Part shown: piece after piece, positions 35,038 through 40,517 of the stretch
How the letters are laid out: each line of letters begins with the position of its first letter
Numbering within the stretch: position 1 is the stretch's first letter
Assembly: GCA_003223395.1 (NCBI GenBank)
Contig: QHUZ01000029.1
Coordinates: 1-57,543 of the forward strand
Origin: Gemmatimonadota bacterium
GTDB lineage: Bacteria; Gemmatimonadota; Gemmatimonadetes; Gemmatimonadales; GWC2-71-9
Length of the DNA: 57,543 bases
Direction of reading: 5' to 3'
The notes under the pieces: model-generated
What the model was told of the DNA's origin: nothing
Databases searched by the model: none
The model's input: the letters and a program-made list of their open reading frames with translations, nothing else
Made by a program: the position numbers and the translations under genes

Positions 35038-35097
35038 CCGCCGTTGACTTTCTGCCCGCCAAATCAAATCGTAGACCAGCTCACCCTCGGAGGACGC

Positions 35098-35442
35098 ATG
35101 GTTACGGGGCAATGGGCTCGTATACGCCCTGCAGAAACCGGCCACCTGCGCCGCGGCGCGTGGTATCGTGTGATCCGCCTCACACCCGTCGAAGCCGTGC
35201 TCGATGTCAACGGCACGCTGACCGCATTCCCGCGCCCATCACTCGAAATCCTGCCGACGCGACCTACCCGCTGGACCGTCGTGCCGCGGCCGCCCCGCGC
35301 GGCGCGGCTGCCGCTGACGTGGGGCTCGCGCTACGGTGTCTGCCCCAATTGCCGCGAGCGCGCCCGCCTCGAAGACCGCACGACCAGCATGCGCTGTCCC
35401 AAGTGCAACGGCTTCTTTGACATCGGCTGGGACAATTCCTGA
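35098..35442 (+). CDS. Small zinc-ribbon protein, tandem paralogue 1
   Basis: 114 residues. ATG 35098 follows GGAGGA (35089-35094). An N-terminal small beta domain carries LRRGAWYRVI and AVLDV, then RWTVV, and the C-terminus is a four-Cys zinc ribbon YGVCPNCRERA ... MRCPKCNGFFDIGW. The same order of motifs recurs in the next two genes. I do not recognise the family; no enzyme motif is visible. It begins 60 nt after selC. Confidence 0.85.
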   Translation: MVTGQWARIRPAETGHLRRGAWYRVIRLTPVEAVLDVNGTLTAFPRPSLEILPTRPTRWTVVPRPPRAARLPLTWGSRYGVCPNCRERARLEDRTTSMRCPKCNGFFDIGWDNS

Positions 35443-35512
35443 TGTCGCGTCGCTTGCGCCGATCACTATATTGTGCCCGCGCCCATTCCCGTCTCCCGAA
35501 CCAGGAGCCGTG

Positions 35513-35878
35513 ATGGCGATCTTATTTGCCCGCCTGCAGGCCGATGTCCCCCTCAAGATGCGCCGCGGGGCGTGGTACCGCGTGATCCAACTCACGGACC
35601 TCCAGGCTGTTATCGAAGTCAATCACCGCAAGGTCGGCGTGTTGCGCGCCTGGCTCGAGATCCAGCAGCGCCCGCCGCAGCGCTGGAGCGTCGTGCACGG
35701 CTCCGCGGAGAACAAGAAAGCGCCGCCGCATCTTCGGGGAACCTACGGCGTGTGTCCGAATTGTCGGGCGCGGGCACCGCTGCCGAAGAAAACCGTGCCC
35801 ACCCTCGAGTGTGCACGCTGCCGGCAGGAGTTCGAGATCAATTGGGAGGAAGGGAACGGCGTCAAACATTCCGCGTGA
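35513..35878 (+). CDS. Small zinc-ribbon protein, tandem paralogue 2
   Basis: 121 residues from ATG 35513 with CAGGAG upstream. Same architecture as its neighbours: MRRGAWYRVI, AVIEV, RWSVV, then YGVCPNCRARA ... LECARCRQEFEINW. The longer frame upstream crosses the previous gene and is not used. The copies are clearly related but differ by many substitutions, so the duplication is old. Confidence 0.85.
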   Translation: MAILFARLQADVPLKMRRGAWYRVIQLTDLQAVIEVNHRKVGVLRAWLEIQQRPPQRWSVVHGSAENKKAPPHLRGTYGVCPNCRARAPLPKKTVPTLECARCRQEFEINWEEGNGVKHSA

Positions 35879-35942
35879 CAACGGTCACTTCCAAGTCGGT
35901 CTGCGTGCATTACTCTTCTCTCCCCTCGACGCCCGAGCGTGA

Positions 35943-36290
35943 ATGATGGTGTGGGCCCGTCTTCAAGCGGATGTCAACTGTAACCTGCGGCGCGGTGCCT
36001 GGTACCGCCTGATCAAGGCTCAGGGCCTCGCCGCCGTGGTTGACGTGAAAGGGACACCCGTCGCCGTTGTCCGCGCCTTCCTGCAGATGTCGAATTCGCC
36101 GCCTCGCAAATGGACCGTCGTGGCGCGCCCCCGCAATGTCCCGCGTTCCGTGGACATCGGGGAGCACTATGCGGTGTGCCCCTCGTGCCGCGACCGCGTC
36201 CCGCTGCGCGGCAAGCCCAGCCGGATGATGTGCGGTCGGTGCAGCGTCGAATTCGCCGTGGACTGGGACGAGCACTATCTGATTCACTAA
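35943..36290 (+). CDS. Small zinc-ribbon protein, tandem paralogue 3
   Basis: 115 residues. Shares with the two copies upstream LRRGAWYRLI, AVVDV, KWTVV and YAVCPSCRDRV ... MMCGRCSVEFAVDW. The first copy-2-like residues ARLQADV are shared with paralogue 2 only, so copies 2 and 3 are probably closest. Two consecutive ATG codons lie at 35943 and 35946. Role unknown; a nucleic-acid or protein-binding adaptor is possible given the zinc ribbon. Confidence 0.85.
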   Translation: MMVWARLQADVNCNLRRGAWYRLIKAQGLAAVVDVKGTPVAVVRAFLQMSNSPPRKWTVVARPRNVPRSVDIGEHYAVCPSCRDRVPLRGKPSRMMCGRCSVEFAVDWDEHYLIH

Positions 36291-38525: not shown

Positions 38526-39276
38526 CGAGAGCATCAGGAAACGTCTTGAGCTCCACCTGGTCGCCCGAGATCACCGCATAACGCCCCCCGTCCAGAAACG
38601 CTCCGGGATTCAGATAGGCACGGCCGTCGGGCAGGCGGTCCACCACCGGCCGATGCGTGTGCGCCATGATCACGAGCTGCACGTCGGCGTGGCTGCCCAG
38701 GAAATCCGCAGCCCAGCGGCGCTGCGCCGCTGCCGCCCGATCCAGCACCGCGCTATCCTTTGTATTATCGGCCAGATGGCGCGAAAACAGATCGGCGATC
38801 CAGAAGCCGATGGTGGGATGCAGCACGCGAAACACCGCGACCGTGATGGGATGACGCAGCACGCGATGCATCAGCGCGCCGGTCCAGTGCTGCTCGGTGA
38901 GGCCGTCGCCGTGCGTAATGAAGGCGCGGCGCCCCCCCAGGTCGAGCTCGGCCTCGCCGCCGAAGAATTCGATGCCGAGATCCTGGGTGAAGAACGAACC
39001 GCCCCAGCGATCGTGGTTGCCCCCCACGAACGTGACCGGCACGCCGCGGGCGCGGACCTCCTGCAGCTTGGCGACGGTGGCAAAATGTTTGCGGGGGATG
39101 ACGCTTGGATACTCGAACCAGAAGTCGAAGACATCGCCCGTGAGAATGAGGTGATCCCCGGGCTGGGGGATCTCATCCAGGAACGCGTGGAACGCCTTCC
39201 CCACGGCGGGCGGCACCTGACCCAGGTGCGCGTCCGCCACCACGATGACGCGAGGGGATTTACTCTGGGACGACAC
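38494..39276 (-). CDS. lpxH: UDP-2,3-diacylglucosamine diphosphatase-like phosphoesterase (LpxH-like)
   Basis: 260 residues, a calcineurin-type metallophosphoesterase: VADAHLG, GDVFDFWFEY, GGNHDRWG, ITHGDG and AHTHRP. GDVFDFW and the tail resemble LpxH, which cleaves UDP-2,3-diacylglucosamine in lipid A synthesis. Other calcineurin-like phosphatases cannot be excluded. GTG start; divergent from the cysteine-repeat gene. Confidence 0.82.
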   Translation of the reverse strand: MSSQSKSPRVIVVADAHLGQVPPAVGKAFHAFLDEIPQPGDHLILTGDVFDFWFEYPSVIPRKHFATVAKLQEVRARGVPVTFVGGNHDRWGGSFFTQDLGIEFFGGEAELDLGGRRAFITHGDGLTEQHWTGALMHRVLRHPITVAVFRVLHPTIGFWIADLFSRHLADNTKDSAVLDRAAAAQRRWAADFLGSHADVQLVIMAHTHRPVVDRLPDGRAYLNPGAFLDGGRYAVISGDQVELKTFPDALVNRAVRPLPA

Positions 39277-39329
39277 GGCCCAAGCTTAGGAACCTGGATC
39301 GACGCACGCAAGCACATTACTGTATTGCC

Positions 39330-40517
39330 ATGACGCAAACGCAAAAGCTCCTGATCGCCATCGGCATCCTGGCCGGAACCGGAATCGCTGCGAACCGCTT
39401 CGCTCCGGCGGGGACGGGCGACCGAGGCGAAGCCTGCCGCCGCTTCGTCAACGAGGCGCGTCGGACCTGCTATTCCCAGCTCCTGTCGGAGCGTCTCAGA
39501 CAGCACGGCGTCGCCGATGCGGTGGCCACCCTGGATAAGCTCGCGGCGACGGACGCCGACGTCGCCGAGCACGCGCACGAGTTCGCGCACGGCCTCGGCA
39601 TCGAGGCATACGGCAGGTCCACCGATATCGTCGCCACCTTTGCCGCCTGCGGTGACGGCTTTTCGTCGGGCTGCCGCCATGGCGTGATCCAGGCGTACTT
39701 CGAATCGCGCGAGAAGGTGACGCAGCCCGAGGTCGAAGCGCTGTGCCAGCCGTTCAAGAGCCCCGGCGCGAGCCGCTGGGTGCTGTTTCAATGTGTTCAC
39801 GGGATGGGCCACGGCCTGACGATGCTGTATGCGCACGACCTGCCGCGCGCACTCACCGACTGCGACATGCTCAGCGACGGGTGGGACCGCGAGTCGTGCT
39901 ACGGCGGCGCGTTCATGGAGAGCGTGATCAACGCGACCGCTCCGCACCATCCCGCGACGATGCTCGCCGCACAGAGCCATCACCACATGATGGGCGGCAC
40001 GACGTTCAAGGCCATGGATCCGGCGGATCCATTGTATCCCTGCTCGATCATGGCCGAGCGGTACCTGGATGCGTGCTACCAGATGCAGACGTCGGTCATG
40101 CTCAATCTGAATCACGGCAACATCGGGGACGCGGCAAAATCGTGCGAGCGCGCGCCGCTGCGCGTCCGGCCAATCTGCTTCCAGAGCCTCGGTCGCGACA
40201 TTACATCCTACACGTCGCGCGATCCACAAAAGACGGCCGATCTCTGTCACACGGCGGCGGAGCCCTACCGCCCCGCGTGTTACTTCGGGGCGGTGAAGGC
40301 GCTCGTCGATTGGACCGCGACGACGGGTGCGGCATTCGCCTTCTGCCAGCTCGTTGCCAGCGAGGCCGGCGGGCCGACCTGCTATCACGCCCTCGGCGAA
40401 GAGATCGCCACACTGCTGGCGTCGCTGCCGGAGCGCGAGGTCCAGTGCCTGCGCGCGCAGGAGCCGCAGGCGGTCATGGCGTGCCGGTTGGGCGCGGGAG
40501 TCCCTGTGTCGCGTTGA
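39330..40517 (+). CDS. Exported Cys-pair repeat protein, ~34-residue solenoid, unknown function
   Basis: 395 residues. An N-terminal membrane anchor or signal (residues 7-24) exports the protein. All 18 cysteines occur as pairs, C-x(7-16)-C, at 36/47, 107/115, 139/155, 178/190, 238/249, 272/283, 306/317, 339/351 and 373/385; the last five pairs recur every 33-34 residues. The second Cys is usually followed by Tyr or Phe and a small-residue helix (ACYFGAVKAL, TCYHALGEEI). Residues 69-94 look like a repeat where His replaces Cys (HAHEFAHGLG). Histidines cluster at 81-87, 117, 157-161 and 206-219. The period equals that of TPR/Sel1-type solenoids, with disulfides added. Not a family I recognise. 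Confidence 0.85.
   Translation: MTQTQKLLIAIGILAGTGIAANRFAPAGTGDRGEACRRFVNEARRTCYSQLLSERLRQHGVADAVATLDKLAATDADVAEHAHEFAHGLGIEAYGRSTDIVATFAACGDGFSSGCRHGVIQAYFESREKVTQPEVEALCQPFKSPGASRWVLFQCVHGMGHGLTMLYAHDLPRALTDCDMLSDGWDRESCYGGAFMESVINATAPHHPATMLAAQSHHHMMGGTTFKAMDPADPLYPCSIMAERYLDACYQMQTSVMLNLNHGNIGDAAKSCERAPLRVRPICFQSLGRDITSYTSRDPQKTADLCHTAAEPYRPACYFGAVKALVDWTATTGAAFAFCQLVASEAGGPTCYHALGEEIATLLASLPEREVQCLRAQEPQAVMACRLGAGVPVSR

Follow-up and report, generated by a model that had tools for sequence, protein, structure and literature searches.

A cysteine-paired helical solenoid family of Gemmatimonadota with a conserved histidine site that may bind copper

The closest described counterparts of the protein analyzed here are helical-repeat proteins stapled by disulfides. 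The Helicobacter proteins HcpB and HcpC are exported, disulfide-linked, and built from Sel1-like tandem alpha-alpha hairpins of similar length, in which Cys pairs tie neighboring helices (PMC3851747). Their pairs have the form Cys-x7-Cys, with a period of 36–38 residues. The mitochondrial protein COA7, which is required in respiratory complex assembly, is found in an oxidizing compartment and has conserved Cys pairs 9–11 residues apart within helix hairpins (PMC6505684). This eukaryotic protein also consists of Sel1 repeats and carries only five disulfides. Similar repeat length and small-residue helices are further seen in the PC repeats of Rpn1/Rpn2, which are cytosolic and devoid of disulfides.

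We analyzed a window of 57,543 nucleotides from a soil Gemmatimonadota bacterium. One of its genes, present as a single copy in its own genome, encodes a protein with 18 cysteines (positions 36, 47, 107, 115, 139, 155, 178, 190, 238, 249, 272, 283, 306, 317, 339, 351, 373, and 385; Table 1). The original prediction, made from the sequence, was that all of these occur in pairs and that the last five pairs follow a period of 33–34 residues. Both statements were confirmed from the ORF translation: there are nine C-x(7-15)-C pairs, and the first cysteines of the last five are spaced by 34, 34, 33, and 34 residues. This is far beyond chance. When 18 cysteines were placed at random in 395 residues, the observed pairing and the observed 33–35 periodicity were each reached in about 1e-5 of the placements, and both jointly in 0 of 200,000. 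The aromatic residue described after the second Cys is present in six of the nine pairs and missing at C115, C155, and C385. One repeat does have His where a Cys would be expected, namely repeat 2 (residues 81–96); a sister clade has C82 in this repeat. An ORF on the other strand (38871–40388) overlaps the gene; it also crosses, in a different frame, the phosphoesterase gene of the opposite strand and is most simply a GC-rich shadow. Elsewhere in the window (35044–36290, + strand), three tandem small paralogous ORFs ('LRRGAWYRVI...CPNCR...CxxC...W') carry a C-terminal zinc-ribbon-like motif.

Table 1. Features of the solenoid gene and its product; positions refer to the window.
Feature	Position	Strand	Basis
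Gene for cysteine-paired solenoid protein	39330..40517	+	395 aa; homologues align over the full length
N-terminal hydrophobic helix (residues 3-24), signal anchor or signal peptide	39336..39401	+	Sequence; model helix 3-20
Repeat 1, Cys pair 36/47	39429..39506	+	Model, alignment, and tree; pair absent as a unit in 9/86
H83-x3-H87, metal-site candidate, repeat 2 (Cys-less)	39576..39590	+	Invariant in 86; offsets +2/+6
H117 and Q121, repeat 3, SGC-x-HG motif	39678..39692	+	Alignment of 86
H157-G-M-G-H161, repeat 4, CVHGMGHG motif	39798..39812	+	Alignment of 86
M196-E197, repeat 5, CYGGAFME motif	39915..39920	+	Alignment of 86
Cys-free His/Met-rich loop (residues 205-230)	39942..40019	+	Low model confidence; hypervariable length
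Five regular 33-34-residue hairpins (residues 238-385)	40041..40484	+	Cys pairs 238/249, 272/283, 306/317, 339/351, 373/385; sequence, model, and alignment

Conservation of the cysteines was examined in an alignment of 86 distinct family members. Every sequence has both cysteines of four pairs (238/249, 272/283, 306/317, and 339/351), and L098, a relative that has lost entire repeats, is the only one to lack pairs 139/155 and 178/190. The two cysteines of pair 36/47 are missing together in 9 of the 86 sequences, pair 373/385 is missing as a unit in eight relatives that end earlier, and pair 107/115 is missing as a unit in nine. In eight of the latter, C82 and C111 are present in place of the missing pair, which suggests a relocated staple. 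An apparent single-Cys loss in one relative (L089) proved to be a one-residue shift (C372). Hence, no Cys has been lost without its partner among the 86 homologues, and cysteines were gained or lost only as pairs. In a maximum-likelihood tree, pair 36/47 accounts for two changes and the exchange of 107/115 for C82/C111 for one; the co-loss pattern is therefore only about three independent evolutionary events. Paired conservation fits disulfides, with a small number of independent tests, and judging from their positions in the sequence the nine Cys pairs probably form disulfide staples. The genome of the window also encodes a homologue of VKOR, a family that forms disulfides, and this protein could form those of the solenoid.

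An AlphaFold2 model of the window protein (21 family members as input; pLDDT 84.7, pTM 0.82) predicts short helices of about 8 residues that alternate with long helices of about 18 residues. In each pair, the short helix has the first Cys at its end or just beyond, and the second Cys lies within the long helix, a few residues from its start. A second model, of a relative of about 28% identity from the C82/C111 clade, revealed the same pattern (pLDDT 82.9, pTM 0.78), and the repetitive fold anticipated earlier is thus predicted as regular helix hairpins in both. These models give good support to an architecture of about ten hairpins, of which nine contain a conserved Cys pair, and the junctions of short and long helices, tied by disulfides, would probably produce a rigid alpha-solenoid. 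Structure searches with both models returned generic alpha-solenoids only, and no listed chain stood out. The top neighbors in VIA-align were the PC repeats of Rpn1/Rpn2 for both models (Z 7.6 and 7.5, rmsd of about 13 Å, 260–285 residues); as these Z values are below the informative level for helical repeats, the match may reflect a common helical arrangement only. Sel1, Hcp, and COA7 chains were absent among the structure matches listed, which is no evidence of a different fold.

The original comparison with TPR and Sel1 proteins holds for repeat size; a sequence relation was not recovered by Pfam profiles or hhalign. The Sel1 profile (PF08238) matched none of 21 members at E ≤ 1 and found nothing in the window genome, the sole trace of a TPR profile was TPR_14 in 1 of 21 members (E 0.41), and Pfam PC_rep was not found in family members. 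Alignment by hhalign to the Gemmatimonadota Sel1 proteins L118, L116, and L115 yielded E-values of about 0.2, the same as for a shuffled sequence. Two of these (L118, genome G121, contig C270; L116, genome G396, contig C39) are genuine Sel1 proteins of the Cys type, Hcp-like and exported, in which each repeat contains C-x7-C, and two apparently unrelated families of cysteine-paired solenoids therefore coexist in this phylum. Neither the protein nor the alignment nor a two-repeat profile had a credible match in Pfam, NCBIfam, or PDB sequences; a match to the phytase 3f41 (E 0.013) covers 50 residues and was taken as chance. At the sensitivity available, the earlier remark that no named family shows this pattern holds, and the results support a new protein family, unnamed in the libraries searched.

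Relatives were identified at twenty loci in GTDB contigs, all of them from Gemmatimonadota. By profile search, the family is present in 92 of 395 Gemmatimonadota genomes and spans 29 of 138 genera, so that roughly one in four of the sampled genomes carries this unannotated family; few metal proteins have been studied in this phylum of soil bacteria. A tblastn search against plasmids added relatives on plasmid 1 of Gemmatirosa kalamazoonensis (32% identity, 2e-33) and on a plasmid of Kitasatospora purpeofusca (25% identity, 2e-6), the latter being the only member seen outside Gemmatimonadota in the GTDB contigs and plasmids searched. Viral contigs and phages contained no relatives. One genome carries a tandem duplicate (L015:4761-6101 and L015:6241-7563), and two or three diverged copies occur in L071 and in other genomes from a single family.

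Apart from the cysteines, the family conserves a distinct set of residues. There are 36 positions with conservation above 93%, and the non-Cys positions among them are concentrated in repeats 2–5. H83, H87, and H161 are found in 100% of the 86 sequences, H117 and H157 in 98–99%, M196 in 100%, E197 in 96%, and Q121 in 86%; G118, G158, G160, G193, and D179 also belong to the highly conserved set. All five His of the site are kept in the Kitasatospora relative. Of the His clusters noted at the outset (81–87, 117, 157–161, and 206–219), all positions are correct; H83, H87, H117, H157, and H161 are conserved, but H81 is not. Counted from the second Cys, offsets of +2/+6 apply to H83/H87 in repeat 2 (which has no Cys and whose register was set at residue 81), H117/Q121 in repeat 3, and H157/H161 in repeat 4, and repeat 5 contributes M196 at +6 and E197 at +7. 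The repeat with His instead of Cys is thereby the first of the conserved site. As the offsets match in four successive repeats, these residues would occupy the same face of four neighboring long helices, and we infer that they are spatially close. The proposal that the His residues bind metal or heme is strengthened by this conservation. One relative (L098:6775-7746, genome G081) has lost the repeats with H117, H157, and H161; its C-terminal pairs remain, as do H83/H87 and the loop rich in His and Met. This copy may be decaying or specialised, and its genome has no CtaG match.

The loop directly after the site is predicted to be flexible (pLDDT < 50 at residues 212–224). Across the 86 homologues, His and Met make up 20% of the loop compared to 5.5% elsewhere, Cys is absent, and the length reaches up to 127 aa. 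Most relatives have such a loop, with strings like GHDHGGMDHGAMGHGGMDHD or EHAGMAGMAGMAGME. Others, like MDHGAMGHGGMDHD and EHAGMAGMAGM, appear to resemble the metal-binding segments of His/Met-rich extracytoplasmic copper proteins of the PcoE/SilE and CopA/PcoA type. His-rich loops are also known to bind zinc and nickel. Export, as claimed initially, is supported by the N-terminal hydrophobic helix and by a lipoprotein-type (lipobox-type) Cys in the N-terminal segment of about 19 relatives.

Gene context was compared within and outside the phylum. The neighbors in the window have housekeeping functions (a metallophosphoesterase on the other strand, a DeoC aldolase, an aldehyde dehydrogenase, and a thioesterase), and their arrangement is kept only among close relatives. 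Among the Gemmatimonadota clades compared, contexts differ and no neighbor is conserved outside close species, so gene context in this phylum gives no function; oxidase genes were not found beside any of the Gemmatimonadota copies examined. Copper-related context was seen on one Kitasatospora plasmid only, where about 107 bp separate the end of the solenoid gene from the oxidase-assembly gene ctaG (Caa3_CtaG, E 7e-74), which follows it directly in the same orientation; a gene for a BlaI-type regulator is nearby, and genes for CcsB and CopC lie within 8 kb. For Caa3_CtaG, a role in CuB insertion has been suggested (PMC9145763). CtaG occurs in 85 of the 92 Gemmatimonadota genomes that have the family and in 221 of the 303 that lack it (p 5e-5, phylogeny ignored). 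CopC shows no association (69 of 92 family-positive vs. 204 of 303 family-negative genomes, p = 0.20), and the genome that contains the window yielded no CopC match. Regarding other neighbors, two genes of the C82/C111 clade (L091:8724-10175 and L096:5072-6505) are divergent from that of an M48-type metallopeptidase, and an M48/M56-type peptidase is encoded two genes downstream in the Kitasatospora locus.

Taken together, sequence conservation suggests metal binding, probably of copper. That the metal is copper and that the protein is linked to heme-copper oxidase assembly is a working hypothesis derived from the loop chemistry and one gene neighborhood. We give roughly even chances to an exported, disulfide-stapled solenoid with a metal site that serves extracytoplasmic copper binding or delivery, possibly linked to oxidase assembly. 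Such a protein would be exported and either anchored or released outside the cytoplasm, where probable disulfides would staple nine of about ten short-helix/long-helix hairpins. H83/H87, H117/Q121, H157/H161, and M196/E197 would form one contiguous transition-metal site on one face of the solenoid, most likely for one or two copper ions. The flexible His/Met-rich loop would capture the metal and hand it over to this site, and the function would be extracytoplasmic copper binding or delivery with a possible connection to heme-copper oxidase assembly.

The same residues could be used differently. In a COA7-like factor for cytochrome oxidase biogenesis, the conserved His would ligate heme and the solenoid would act as a chaperone or thiol-disulfide partner; COA7 shows that cysteine-paired helical hairpins can serve respiratory complex assembly, H157-x3-H161 and the invariant M196 could be heme ligands, and the Kitasatospora relative adjoins CtaG near CcsB. 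We consider this unlikely, however, because five His and a His/Met-rich loop are easier to reconcile with a metal ion than with a single heme, and both the lack of a sequence relation to Sel1 and the absence of oxidase genes beside the Gemmatimonadota copies examined argue against it. A conserved non-Cys set in repeats 2–5 that exceeds the needs of a simple scaffold would agree with an uncharacterised extracytoplasmic metalloenzyme, in which the invariant glycines (HGxGHG) shape a repeat-built active site; with no match to an enzyme family or fold, and with hypervariable metal-capture loops that are unusual in enzymes, this reading is likewise unlikely. The lowest probability falls to an Hcp-like, disulfide-stabilised scaffold for protein-protein interactions with structural His, which we regard as quite improbable. 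Alpha-solenoids often serve as binding scaffolds, the Helicobacter Hcp proteins are themselves exported and disulfide-linked, and charged residues are kept at the +6 row in repeats 7–9 (R289, K323, and E357), but the near-absolute conservation of the five His, M196, and E197 would be left unexplained, as would the His/Met-rich loop.

Returning to the copper-delivery reading, a site that binds copper would be of a new design, built from equivalent positions of disulfide-locked repeats and accompanied by a length-variable capture arm. The protein would then also represent a convergent bacterial equivalent of the COA7/Hcp architecture. More tentatively, and with a rather low likelihood, a new family of exported, disulfide-stapled solenoids with a multi-His/Met metal site across successive repeats may feed copper to respiratory oxidases from Gemmatimonadota to Actinomycetota, analogous to COA7 but unrelated to it.

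Compared to Sel1-type tandem hairpins of 36–38 residues, the hairpins predicted for the window protein have a period of 33–34 residues and a helix asymmetry of about 8 versus about 18 residues. As in Hcp proteins, there are Cys pairs per hairpin that are conserved as pairs; the spacing within a pair, however, is x10-11 instead of x7. Hcp proteins are not known to have the conserved His set and the His/Met loop. COA7 shares the Cys pairs within hairpins, and its link with oxidase assembly parallels the Kitasatospora gene context. Unlike in PcoE/SilE- and CopA/PcoA-type copper proteins, the metal-binding-like segment of the window family interrupts a cysteine-paired solenoid as a loop. The protein is best described as one that would work like the stapled Sel1 proteins Hcp and COA7, but differs from them in its period, its Cys spacing, and its added His site.
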